Assembly (NCBI RefSeq): GCF_000244875.1
Contig: NC_016791.1
Coordinates: forward strand, 2,237,001-2,301,000
Length of the DNA: 64,000 nt
Origin: Clostridium sp. BNL1100
GTDB taxonomy: Bacteria > Bacillota > Clostridia > Acetivibrionales > DSM-1351
Direction: 5' to 3'
The notes beneath the pieces were generated by a model. The model was not told where the DNA came from and did not search any database. It saw only the letters and a program-made list of their open reading frames with translations. Within the stretch, counting starts at the first letter, position 1, and each line of letters opens with the position of its first letter. Position numbers and translations under genes: made by a program. Positions 54,354 through 59,284 of the stretch are shown piece after piece.

Positions 54354-55709
54354 TTAAGTACTTGCACTGATGGCAACAGTAAATATTTTTTCAATCAAGG
54401 ACAATGCTCCTCTATATCCGACATTTGCCCTTGATAAAACCACTTCATAGGATGCCGGGAAGCCAATTTCAACAATGTTTCCGCCAAGCTCCTTTGCAGC
54501 ATCTCTGTCCCACGTTGTTCCTAATATAATTGAAGGTTTTTCTTCAGAATTGATAAGGGCTTGCTCAACCAAATAACCATCTTCTAAAAAAAGAGGTGTT
54601 ACGCTAACATCATCTGCAATGTTTACAAATTCTTTTATAATATTGTCCCTATATTCTTCAGGAGGATTTTCCGTTACAATTTGTTTAACCGGAATCAATC
54701 CAAGCTGATTTACAAGAAATTTAGTAATGGCCAGATTATAGCTGCTTTCGCCCACAACAGCAAATTTAGATGGGACACCCCACCAATATTCTGCATAGAA
54801 ATCTGAAAAATCCTCCAAATATTTATAATATAGTTTCTCTTCCTGTTGTATGAACTGTTCTGTCTTTTCCAGATTTAATCCTGCAAAATCCGATACTTTG
54901 CGTAAGAACTCAGATGTAGCTTTCGCCCCAATAGGGATTACAGGTATATGTAAAAAAGGTTGACCATATTTTCCCTCAAGATACTTTGCTGTACTAATTC
55001 CAAGCCAGGTTGATATAACAAGATTAAACTGTGCCTTAGGAATTTCTTTCCACTCCTCAACACCTTTTGAACTGTGTCCAAATAAAATATTAACTTTAAG
55101 GCCTATCCCTTCAAGACTACGTTTGATCTCAGAGAGATCCCCCCTCCAAAATGGGTTTTGATATGGAATTTCTGTCCAAACATTAACTACATTCTTTTTC
55201 TTTTGCCCTTTGTAGTCACCGACATATTGGTCAATAATTGCTTTTGTAACCAATTCATGACCTGTATAGTTATTCCCCTTAAATCCACCTGTCTCAGCGT
55301 AAACAATGGGAACACCTTTTTCTTGAAATTTTGATACCACTGACGGTACATCATCACCAACAAGGTCAGGTATACAACCTGTGAGTACCACAAACAAATC
55401 TGCATCAATTACCTTTGTTGAAGCTTGTATCAGTTCTTTAAGCCTCTCATTTCCTCCAAATACCACTTCATTTTCTGAGGCATTAAGACTGGGGGGAACA
55501 GCTCCACCGCCATAGCCTCCTCCCTGAAACCCGTTGTAAAAAGCAAGACTAACATATTGCTTATCTGCACAACCCGGTCCGCAATGAGTAATAGGAACTA
55601 CTCTCGGAATTGCACTTGCAGTGTACATAGCGCCAATAGCACAGCCATAACGTGGTCGGCTTATGGAATTTGTTTTCTGATTTTCATATGAATTTCCAAT
55701 CTGTGACAT
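54354..55709 (-). CDS. Nitrogenase component 1-like subunit (NifK/NifN-like)
   Basis: 451 residues. The P-cluster-type cysteines are conserved: Cys23 (RPRYGCAIGA), Cys43/Cys47 (ITHCGPGCADK) and Cys112 (LTGCIPDLVGDD). Three Rossmann-like subdomains follow as in NifK. The N-terminal extension of true NifK is missing, making it closer in size to NifN-like proteins. It pairs with the larger subunit encoded 15 bases upstream. No NifH, NifB or NifEN gene is in the window, so the reductase and cofactor supply lie elsewhere. Candidate roles are a nitrogenase-like reductase of unknown substrate or a cofactor scaffold. Confidence 0.85.
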   Translation of the reverse strand: MSQIGNSYENQKTNSISRPRYGCAIGAMYTASAIPRVVPITHCGPGCADKQYVSLAFYNGFQGGGYGGGAVPPSLNASENEVVFGGNERLKELIQASTKVIDADLFVVLTGCIPDLVGDDVPSVVSKFQEKGVPIVYAETGGFKGNNYTGHELVTKAIIDQYVGDYKGQKKKNVVNVWTEIPYQNPFWRGDLSEIKRSLEGIGLKVNILFGHSSKGVEEWKEIPKAQFNLVISTWLGISTAKYLEGKYGQPFLHIPVIPIGAKATSEFLRKVSDFAGLNLEKTEQFIQQEEKLYYKYLEDFSDFYAEYWWGVPSKFAVVGESSYNLAITKFLVNQLGLIPVKQIVTENPPEEYRDNIIKEFVNIADDVSVTPLFLEDGYLVEQALINSEEKPSIILGTTWDRDAAKELGGNIVEIGFPASYEVVLSRANVGYRGALSLIEKIFTVAISAST

Positions 55710-55724
55710 TTTTTACCTCCCAAA

Positions 55725-57248
55725 TTAATCTTGATATATAATATCGGGGTTTTTAGCAAGGATATATGGATCGTCCTGACTTAGCCACCACTTTGTATAA
55801 GGTAGCTTAATATGCTGTGCCAAATCTTCGTGAAATTTCTTTCTTTTTAAAATAGCTAATATTGCTTCGCCCAAGTTTACAATGCCCTCATAACCTACTG
55901 CAATATGTTCGTCTCCAAGAGGAGCAGCCGGAATACCAAGACGTGATGCTAGAGGTGCAAGCCCGTTATGTCTTATTAATAAAAAGTCGGGCTGGGCTTT
56001 TATCAGTAATGCATAGAGCTGATGTTGCTGTCTATTGCTGACACTGAAATTTTCCACATTTCCATAGTTATTAACAAGAAAGGCTAAAGAGTCTTGTATA
56101 GGATCTTCACTGTCATAGATAGGATCGTGGTGGAATACCAATGAGCCGTTCACTTCAACACCAAGCTCTCTTAATACTGAAATCAGTCCATGAGAATAGG
56201 CAGAACCTGTTGCAACATATCCTTTTACACCCTTCAGTTTTTTCTTTAACTCTTCAATTTTAGGCGTTACACGCTCACGCTCTTTTTTTATGTAAGCTTC
56301 ACAAAGCTCCTCACGATGTGTGATTTTTGCTATCCCCCTAAGCCATGCATCGGTTCCGGCAAAGCCGTAAGGTTGAGGAGCTTTCAATTCCGGAACACCA
56401 AAATTTTGTTCCAGTCCCTGAGCCAAATACGAGGAAAGCGTATTACAAAAGCCAACTGTAATAGCAGCCTCTGACATCTGTGCCAAATCTTCAACAGTCG
56501 CCAGATCAACAACATAATTTACACGTAAATTAAGTTCCTTAAGCATTGGTTTAAATACATCAGAACCCCAAAGATTGATTACATTTACCAAATCTTCCTG
56601 CTTTTTTGGGTTTTTCCTTACTATATCTCTTAAAATACCGTGTTGAGTGGCATCAAATCCTGTGCTCCAATGTTTTGAGCGGAAGCCTTCACAATGAAGC
56701 GGAATAATAGGAATTCCAAACTTCTCCGAATACTCCGATGCAACGCTGTCAACATCATCACCGATAATGCCGGTAGCACATGCTGTTCCAATAAAAATTG
56801 CATTGGGCTTATATCTCTCCCATACATCGCGCGTAGTCTGTTCAAGCTTTCCAATTCCCCCGAAAACCATATCACCTTCTATCAAATTTGTAGAAACGAT
56901 TTTAAGATTTTCTACAGGAAGGCCTCTCATAGCAAGACCATTACGATATATTGAATTATAAATTGTTTGGCTTACCGCACAGCCAATAGGGGAATGCTGA
57001 ATCAAAACGGCACCTCTCACATTTCCAGCCTGACATTCCACCATTTGTTCACTGCAAACAGAGCCTTGTGTAAAAGGTCCTTTCATTTCGCAAAGCTTAC
57101 AACCATTGCCTTTTTTACCGCTGCAACCAAGAATAGAATATCCTGATTCCTCTACCAATTTTGAAGCTTCACCGTCCCAGCCTATGATCGTGCCAAGACG
57201 CTGTTCACGGCTTACAACAGTAGTGGCTGCTAAATTAATTTTACCCAT
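55725..57248 (-). CDS. Nitrogenase component 1-like subunit (NifD/NifE-like)
   Basis: 507 residues. P-cluster-type cysteines Cys65 (GSVCSEQM), Cys90 (QHSPIGCAVS) and Cys157 (GTACATGIIGDD) are spaced as in NifD/NifE. Cys268 in TVGFCNTLSSYLA aligns by eye with the FeMo-cofactor ligand Cys275 of NifD, whereas the region of the second ligand His442 reads DEHIAVGYEGIV, with Tyr/Glu in place of the histidine. Extra N-terminal cysteines (GCSGKKGNGCKLCEMKG, 42-53) could hold another metal site. So it is unlikely to be a standard N2-fixing subunit. Start ATG behind GGAGGAGATAGG; the leader carries two attenuators. Confidence 0.85.
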   Translation of the reverse strand: MGKINLAATTVVSREQRLGTIIGWDGEASKLVEESGYSILGCSGKKGNGCKLCEMKGPFTQGSVCSEQMVECQAGNVRGAVLIQHSPIGCAVSQTIYNSIYRNGLAMRGLPVENLKIVSTNLIEGDMVFGGIGKLEQTTRDVWERYKPNAIFIGTACATGIIGDDVDSVASEYSEKFGIPIIPLHCEGFRSKHWSTGFDATQHGILRDIVRKNPKKQEDLVNVINLWGSDVFKPMLKELNLRVNYVVDLATVEDLAQMSEAAITVGFCNTLSSYLAQGLEQNFGVPELKAPQPYGFAGTDAWLRGIAKITHREELCEAYIKKERERVTPKIEELKKKLKGVKGYVATGSAYSHGLISVLRELGVEVNGSLVFHHDPIYDSEDPIQDSLAFLVNNYGNVENFSVSNRQQHQLYALLIKAQPDFLLIRHNGLAPLASRLGIPAAPLGDEHIAVGYEGIVNLGEAILAILKRKKFHEDLAQHIKLPYTKWWLSQDDPYILAKNPDIIYQD

Positions 57249-57307
57249 CCTATCTCCTCCATTAATGCGTTTTATACTAATTACATCTAAAGCAGTACTT
57301 TAAAAAT

Positions 57308-57375
57308 AAAAAAAGACTATTTTCAATATCTGCATAAGCAGAATTAAAGTTAGTCTCTAATTTATTTAGTCAACC
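57308..57375 (-). promoter_or_regulatory. Second attenuator in the nitrogenase-like leader
   Basis: Minus-strand RNA begins GGTTGACTAAATAAATTAGAGAC and folds into a terminator whose outer arms are GACTA / ATAGTC with an internal CTGC/GCAG hairpin, followed by seven T. It repeats the pattern of the unit 117 bases upstream. A small alternative hairpin CTAA-ATAAA-TTAG lies just before the terminator arm. Confidence 0.65.
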
Positions 57376-57424
57376 TTTTCTTATTTTATTTTTATTTCAA
57401 CGACGTAAAAGCTTCTTCCTTAAT

Positions 57425-57494
57425 AAAAAAGACTATTTCCTTTTCACTGAAATTCAGCAAAGGTAGAAACAGTCTCTAATTCGTTTAGTAAACC
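57425..57494 (-). promoter_or_regulatory. First attenuator in the nitrogenase-like leader
   Basis: Minus-strand RNA begins GGTTTACTAAACGAATTAGAG, then a terminator hairpin: outer GACTGTTTC / GAAATAGTC, inner CCTTT/AAAGG and CTGAA/TTCAG, ended by six T. Shares GGTT-ACTAAA-AATTAGAGACT and AAATAGTCTTTTTT with the downstream unit. The repeated box before each terminator is the likely target of an antiterminating factor. Confidence 0.65.
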
Positions 57495-57510: not shown

Positions 57511-57539
57511 ATTATAATTGTTATTTCCTTCCATGTCAA
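57511..57539 (-). promoter_or_regulatory. Near-consensus sigma-A promoter of the nitrogenase-like operon
   Basis: Minus strand: TTGACA (57534-57539), 17-base spacer, TATAAT (57511-57516). Transcription would start near 57504, giving a ~256-base leader that contains both attenuators. A perfect promoter ahead of two terminators implies control after initiation. Confidence 0.85.
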
Positions 57540-57619: not shown

Positions 57620-58615
57620 TTAATTGAGTTCAGACGGTTGCGGTCGTTCCACCTCTCGAATAATTAAATCTTTTTTCTTTATGTTATATTGAACCACTAC
57701 TTCCTCTACAATATCTGGATCATAATAAGATAAACTTGCACCAAAGCTCAGTACATTTTCATTCTCCCATTTTATATTATATATACCGCTGTAGTTCTCT
57801 CTATCTGCACGCACATAAATTTCATAGCCTTTTTTACAGGCTAATCTAAACCTTGCAGTATCTACTAGCGCTGGACTTACCGTTCCTTCTGCCATATCAT
57901 ATATAGTCAAATAGGAGCTTTTATTAGAGCATGTTGCTACAGCTAGCTTTTTGCCATCTGGTGAAACAAACATATCAGTAATATACATAGAGGGCTTCGA
58001 ATATTCATCGTAGCATTCTAGTACTCCATCCTTTATACGCCATAATCTGTTATCACTTCCGTAATCTGAATAATTATTAAATAGTGTAAAAAATATACTG
58101 CCATCATACATTTTATAAACCTTTTCACTATCATACTTTCCTGTCAGTATAGCTATCGCAAACTGTGCTGCTTGAGCAAGCTTTTTTTCTTTACTTTTTG
58201 AAAAAGGCGTTATAGCTGTTATAGCCTTCTCTCTAATTTTATGATTATTAAAATATTCTACAAGCTTATTAATAGCAATATACTGTTCATATGTATTGTC
58301 TGAATTTAGCGCATTAAAATATTTTTGTGCTTGTTCACTTTCATCTCCATGAGTAGTTAAACACATGTCTTCCGCCGACAAAAAACGCATGTATAGCTCT
58401 TCTGTATTTTTTTTAATAATATTTGCTGCCACTGTAGCAACAGAAAAAGAAAAAACAATACAAAACAATGCTGCTACAGTCATATAACGCCACTTTCCTT
58501 TTTCTTGCTTATGTACAAGTCTTCCTTCTCTTAATATACCCTTTAGCATCTTTTCCTTTTGCTCTTCATTTGGAGAGCAGGCTTCAAAAATTCTTTTCAT
58601 ATCTTTATCCTTCAT
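57620..58615 (-). CDS. Membrane anti-sigma factor with extracellular beta-propeller-like domain
   Basis: 331 residues. The first ~40 cytosolic residues are charged (MKDKDMKRIFEACSPNEEQKEKML), followed by one membrane helix (~44-66, MTVAALFCIVFSFSVATVAANI). The outside part (~70-331) has a helical segment and then WD40/propeller-like strands (LWRIKDGVLECYDEYSKPSM, DMFVSPDGKKLAVATCS, YLTIYDMAEG). It overlaps the ECF sigma gene by 11 bases, the standard layout for a sigma/anti-sigma pair. The outer domain should sense an envelope or substrate signal. Confidence 0.8.
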   Translation of the reverse strand: MKDKDMKRIFEACSPNEEQKEKMLKGILREGRLVHKQEKGKWRYMTVAALFCIVFSFSVATVAANIIKKNTEELYMRFLSAEDMCLTTHGDESEQAQKYFNALNSDNTYEQYIAINKLVEYFNNHKIREKAITAITPFSKSKEKKLAQAAQFAIAILTGKYDSEKVYKMYDGSIFFTLFNNYSDYGSDNRLWRIKDGVLECYDEYSKPSMYITDMFVSPDGKKLAVATCSNKSSYLTIYDMAEGTVSPALVDTARFRLACKKGYEIYVRADRENYSGIYNIKWENENVLSFGASLSYYDPDIVEEVVVQYNIKKKDLIIREVERPQPSELN

Positions 58616-59111
58616 TTCTTCTTCCCTCCTCCAAATCCATTTTTAACTTTTTACGTGCTGTAACCAGTTGTGTCTGGACCGTACTTTCATTTCTTTTTAA
58701 CAGTTTTGCTATTTCTTTTACAGCATACTCCTCATAATAATAAAGATATAAAACCGTTTTATACTTCTCTGGTAATGCAAGGATTTTTTCTAACACCTCA
58801 CTACCTTCATTCTCATTCATATAGCTAACTTCAGGTAGCTTTTCAAAATCTATGCGCCTTACTTTCCAAAAACATTTTAAAACATCCTTGCAATAATTAC
58901 GTGCTGTCACTATAAGCCAGGCTTTTTCATGTGCCTCATTCTCAAAATATTTTTTTGACTGCATCAATTTAATAAATGCAGATTGCACTGCATCTTCTGC
59001 ATCTGCTTGATTTTTTAAATAAATGTAGCAAAGTCTAAAAATCGTATCCGCATATCGTTTATATACCTGTATAAATTCTTCCTCTGTATATCCACACGAA
59101 CTTACTCCCAT
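58605..59111 (-). CDS. ECF-type RNA polymerase sigma factor
   Basis: 168 residues from ATG 59111, chosen because GGAGGTGAGG precedes it. Region 2 (~8-75): FIQVYKRYADTIFRLCYIYLKN and DAEDAVQSAFIKLMQS, AHEKAWLIVTARNYCKD. Region 4 (~110-160): LPEKYKTVLYLYYYEEYAVKEIAKLL and STVQTQLVTARKKLK. Directs RNA polymerase to stress or envelope promoters when released by the anti-sigma factor. Its targets are not visible here. Confidence 0.92.
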   Translation of the reverse strand: MGVSSCGYTEEEFIQVYKRYADTIFRLCYIYLKNQADAEDAVQSAFIKLMQSKKYFENEAHEKAWLIVTARNYCKDVLKCFWKVRRIDFEKLPEVSYMNENEGSEVLEKILALPEKYKTVLYLYYYEEYAVKEIAKLLKRNESTVQTQLVTARKKLKMDLEEGRRNEG

Positions 59112-59284
59112 TTCCTCACCTCCCATATATAACACGATTGAAATCTTATAAATATCTTAATATACATAAATTTTATTTCTACAAAATTCTCAACAATAAT
59201 ACAAATGCTTATCACAACTCCCAATGGACTCGCTCATTGTAAAACTGAATCTTACTTTTTCACCGTATAGATATTGACTCGATT

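Follow-up and report, generated by a model that had tools for sequence, protein, structure and literature searches.

Which enzyme is encoded by a pair of nitrogenase component 1-like genes in the cellulolytic Clostridium sp. BNL1100, and where would it find its reductase? The pair lies in a 64-kb stretch of DNA, here called the window. A first-pass annotation had placed such a pair at 54354-57248 and had regarded it as a possible reductase of unknown substrate. Both ORFs were found there, adjacent on the minus strand with 15 bases between them, each preceded by a Shine-Dalgarno-like sequence. The upstream ORF, encoding subunit D (55725-57248, 507 aa), and the downstream ORF, encoding subunit K (54354-55709, 451 aa), matched the Pfam family Oxidored_nitro (E 1e-75 and 1e-69, respectively), and neither reached the cut-off of the NCBIfam nitrogenase, NifEN, Bch or Cfb models. 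In agreement with the annotation, tblastn searches found no NifH-, NifB- or NifEN-like sequence in the 64 kb, and in a genome-wide search with two Pfam families D and K were the only matches inside the window. NifH, NifB and NifEN are encoded elsewhere in the genome (4.61 Mb, one contig), which contains eight Oxidored_nitro genes: those of the nif operon (nifD, nifK, nifE and nifNB), a second nitrogenase-like pair and the pair in the window.

The best matches among solved structures were by far the chains of the methylthio-alkane reductase of Rhodospirillum rubrum (PDB 9fmg and 9d9u), where D reached E 1e-248 and K 3e-207, compared to 5e-34 and 1e-22 for the next-best structures. Subunit D is 72% identical to R. 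rubrum MarD and K is 68% identical to MarK, while D shares only ~26% identity with NifD and NifE of its own genome. In a quick tree of 118 D proteins, with SH-aLRT support only and with Isr sequences left out, D was positioned together with R. rubrum MarD inside the MarD clade (88 rows, SH-aLRT 99), apart from NifD and NifE. The NifEN or NifDK placement for which the annotation had proposed a phylogeny was thus not obtained. Within the MarD clade, D belongs to a well-supported subgroup that also contains Ruminiclostridium papyrosolvens (98%), R. hungatei, R. cellobioparum and Clostridium aminobutyricum. The structure prediction that had also been proposed was performed for D (AlphaFold2, pLDDT 77, pTM 0.79), and the model resembled 9fmg_A most closely (Z 44.7, 2.2 Å over 463 residues); NifEN was the next family with Z 29.5, and the values for NifEN and NifDK both stayed at or below this. 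Both subunits are therefore orthologues of R. rubrum MarD and MarK by identity, and D also by its clade. Judged from its sequence, the pair is marD plus marK and encodes the catalytic component of methylthio-alkane reductase, an enzyme that the annotation itself had named for comparison. An unknown substrate is no longer called for, and one candidate "unknown nitrogenase-like enzyme" is removed: the stand-alone MarDK is a known enzyme with a known fold and a known cofactor site. We did not find a description of marDK in Ruminiclostridium in the open-access literature, which is a weak negative.

The annotation had further described an altered cofactor site, which keeps the equivalent of NifD Cys275 and lacks that of His442. 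Cys275 indeed corresponds to Cys268 of the window D, and no histidine is present at the position of NifD His442, so that the site is altered when compared to NifD. However, it is a normal MarD site according to the structural account in PMC12552129, where the [Fe8S9C] cluster of MarD is held by Cys270 and His429, the latter in a loop that is not conserved in nitrogenases. By alignment, the cluster ligands of the window D would be Cys268 and His427, and the missing His442 is explained by the position of the cofactor histidine in this different, MarD-specific loop (Loop I; Arg426-His427, codons at 55968-55973, minus strand, aligned to R. rubrum Arg428-His429). The same account states that an earlier sequence analysis overlooked His429 because of the non-conserved loop; the MarD-specific histidine can thus mislead readers who search for His442. 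A degenerate cofactor site, considered in view of the missing His442, was rejected once the ligand had been located in Loop I as described there. After matching the published residue numbers on the MarD sequence of the phmmer alignment, we found all nine published MarD residues (Cys73, Gln74, His194, Trp195, Phe199, Cys270, His375, Arg428 and His429) to be kept, as Cys72, Gln73, His193, Trp194, Phe198, Cys268, His373, Arg426 and His427, respectively; all but the two ligands are pocket residues. Cys268, Arg426 and His427 were invariant over 32 MarD proteins. The nitrogenase residues Gln191 and His195 are absent, with Trp194 and Phe198 in their place.

All six P-cluster-type cysteines, three per subunit, are conserved as had been noted: Cys65, Cys90 and Cys157 of D align with MarD Cys66, Cys91 and Cys158, and Cys23, Cys47 and Cys112 of K with MarK Cys32, Cys56 and Cys121. 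The N-terminal cysteine group that had been seen in the larger subunit comprises Cys42, Cys50 and Cys53. Among the 32 MarD proteins, which come from several phyla, Cys42 and Cys53 were at least 90% conserved, and on this alignment the N-terminal cysteines are a trait of the MarD family. The part of PMC12552129 that deals with the N-terminal region describes it as flexible and gives these cysteines no role.

In R. rubrum the genes marBHDK occur together as a set, whereas in this genome marDK stands alone and the cognate MarH and MarB are encoded ~217 kb away on the same chromosome. There, an operon at genome positions 2067346-2074504 (locus L017) encodes a NifB-like radical SAM protein (MarB, 38% to NifB), a NifX-like protein, a MarH-like reductase and a second D-K pair (D2 and K2, 43% and 47% to the window pair), and also a cystathionine-lyase-family enzyme (a methionine/cysteine PLP enzyme) and a cysteine synthase. 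It contains the only close MarH of the genome. D2-K2 (L017 7587-10368) keeps the Arg-His loop and the cysteine ligand, has an isoleucine at the position of MarD His194 and is devoid of the N-terminal cysteines; it may act on a different substrate.

The marDK and marB operons have a leader motif in common. Upstream of marD, a putative sigma-70-type promoter (TTGACA-17-TATAAT at 57511-57539, minus strand), proposed only on a 12/12 match to the consensus, precedes two tandem leader units. Unit 1 (57421-57493, minus strand) consists of the box GTTKACTRAANNNATYAGAGRCT, which could form a small hairpin, followed by an intrinsic-terminator-like hairpin and a T-run; in unit 2 (57305-57374, minus strand) the box and the terminator-like hairpin are repeated. 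These hairpins are interrupted or A+T-rich and were for that reason missed by a simple terminator scan; the folding energies of the leader were below those of shuffled sequence (z -2.5 and -5.0). In total, the box pattern had three exact matches in the 4.6 Mb genome, two before marD of the window and one before marB, and none at the nif operon. In 11 genomes of the genus we found 16 box matches versus 0 for the reversed control, and those that were inspected lie upstream of marDK or marB. Just upstream of the mar promoter and on the same strand, we observed an ECF sigma factor gene (58605-59135) that overlaps the start of a gene at 57620-58615, the product of which has a hydrophobic N-terminal stretch.

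Over 13 leader copies, both the hairpin of the box and the basal part of the terminator stem were kept in 100% of alignment cells, with double changes at one pair in each of the two structures. In looser copies near mar genes of other clostridia, a further pair of the box was changed. In two copies from one locus (L141), the box hairpin appears by eye to share its second arm with the terminator, of which it forms the first arm, as in an attenuator. An Rfam search of the window, the marB and nif loci (L017 and L018) and the loci of seven relatives gave no match to the leader. The leader is a candidate for an RNA that regulates the mar genes; however, the box could equally be a DNA dyad operator instead of an RNA hairpin, as such an operator would give an identical pattern of paired changes. 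An ANTAR-type target was also considered, by eye, and rejected: one loop starts with A..G, and the other copies do not fit. The nif operon has a leader of its own (L018 17360-17560, minus strand), with two tandem hairpin and T-run units and another box sequence. The least expected feature of the mar system is its leader with tandem terminator-like hairpins; being common to both operons, the leader offers a handle on how stand-alone catalytic pairs find their reductase.

Besides this common leader, the distribution of the genes suggests that the two operons belong together. Orthologues of marDK (at least 81% identity) and of MarH (at least 93%) were present in the same seven of the 11 genus genomes; genomes without MarH were also without marDK, and NifH-type genes persisted in genomes that lack both. 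In one relative (G009), a 4.5-kb deletion has removed X, H and D2 together with the 3' part of marB and almost the whole of K2, and marDK is missing as well. Still present are the leader, the 5' half of marB and the sulfur genes further downstream; the truncated marB lies at the deletion junction (L156 8256-8726), with the leader still in front of it. A gene flanking marDK that was tried as a synteny marker was absent from the relative without marDK. At locus L121 a single B and a single H occur in one operon with both D-K pairs, and the clusters at L133 and L125 are similar. Because of the common leader, the co-occurrence in the genus, the co-loss in G009 and these single-operon versions, MarDK probably borrows its reductase and its cofactor maturase from the marB-X-H-D2-K2 operon, which is in line with the annotation's idea of a borrowed distant reductase. 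The evidence that ties marDK to the marB operon consists of correlations, and MarH might be the partner of D2-K2 alone and not of the window pair; NifH or NifB from the nif operon might also take part. Taking all data together, a MarDK enzyme with MarH and MarB supplied in trans, and with both operons under the common leader, is very probably the correct explanation.

It is unlikely that the nif operon, through its NifH and NifB, is instead the main source of partners for MarDK. The nif operon of the genome is complete and encodes NifH as well as a NifN-NifB fusion, some MarDK operons elsewhere include a NifH-type reductase (in Selenomonas with 78% identity to NifH of the window genome), and several genomes with stand-alone marDK have NifH-type proteins only. 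However, in the genus marDK shares exactly its seven genomes with MarH and does not follow the NifH-type genes, and the leader motif, absent from nif in the genome search, is the one that precedes marB.

With MarH and MarB as the partners, the enzyme would be a Mar(DK)2 heterotetramer that holds P-clusters and [Fe8S9C] clusters and receives electrons from an ATP-dependent MarH dimer, while MarH and the NifB-like maturase MarB would come in trans from the marB operon. Its substrates would be (2-methylthio)ethanol, dimethyl sulfide or ethyl methyl sulfide, and reductive cleavage of their C-S bond would yield methanethiol for methionine together with ethylene, methane or ethane. Both operons would be read through the terminator-like leader and would probably be switched together, most likely by sulfur supply. 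Genes for MtnK, MtnA and a class II aldolase are consecutive at genome positions 1156086-1159205; mtnK-mtnA-ald2 is known to convert methylthioadenosine to 2-methylthioacetaldehyde (PMC10986504). The aldolase is below every curated NCBIfam cut-off and is called ald2-like for its position beside mtnK-mtnA. These genes could feed (2-methylthio)ethanol to the enzyme, and a route from methylthioadenosine to methionine with release of ethylene, via the sulfur genes of the marB operon, is plausible. If the enzyme is active, clostridia that degrade cellulose in soil and gut would be able to form ethylene and methane by a route independent of oxygen. That one MarH and one MarB serve two MarDK pairs in distant operons, that a tandem hairpin-terminator leader without an Rfam match switches both, and that a cellulolytic Clostridium in this way makes ethylene from its own methylthioadenosine has, as a whole, about an even chance of being right.

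The substrate range is not readable from sequence alone, and a related sulfur enzyme with another substrate, an isethionate reductase (IsrDK) or another Group IV reductase, has to be considered. IsrBHDK of Rhodobacter capsulatus is likewise a Group IV nitrogenase-like system with a proposed C-S cleavage for sulfur assimilation, and in published trees IsrD adjoins MarD (PMC11423573). Nevertheless, such an enzyme is very improbable here, as D is 72% identical to the assayed R. rubrum MarD, has all published pocket residues and is nested in the MarD clade, albeit in a tree without Isr sequences. Moreover, Isr forms a separate clade in PMC11423573 and its maturase IsrB is not NifB-like, in contrast to the maturase of this genome. 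A nitrogenase or a NifEN-type scaffold, although alike in fold and P-cluster cysteines, can practically be dismissed given the low identity to NifD and NifE of the same genome, the tree, the absence of His442, the replacement of Gln191 and His195, which N2 reduction requires, and the lack of N2 reduction by R. rubrum MarDK in the account of PMC12552129.

The split arrangement is common and ordinary for methylthio-alkane reductase, as follows from the locus counts, a search of split genomes and a published case. Of the 79 named MarD loci, 16 showed no NifH-type gene near marDK, each of these with 8.5 kb or more to either side. When 19 genomes in which marDK lies apart from a reductase gene were searched, each contained a NifH relative somewhere; in 14 it was at least 76% identical to MarH of the window genome, and the other five had solely NifH-type proteins with ~46-60% identity to it. 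In Heliophilum fasciatum, MarDK (NflDK5) also has no reductase gene beside it, and one shared NifH-like protein was proposed (PMC9147875); its MarD (L084) falls in the same MarD clade as the window D in the 118-protein tree. The shared reductase of Heliophilum adjoins a possible nitrogenase, whereas that of the window genome adjoins the second mar-like pair.

Among further relatives, marH-marD-marK was found at seven loci of Candidatus Methanoplasma, termite-gut methanogens (L085, L111, L114, L145, L151, L152 and L153). Their MarD proteins fall together with those of the Ruminiclostridium clade (16 rows, SH-aLRT 99), a placement that suggests that mar genes moved between domains. In Clostridium aminobutyricum (L076 10001-16800), two close marD copies, 90% and 87% identical to the window D, flank marK, and a MarH gene is located near them.
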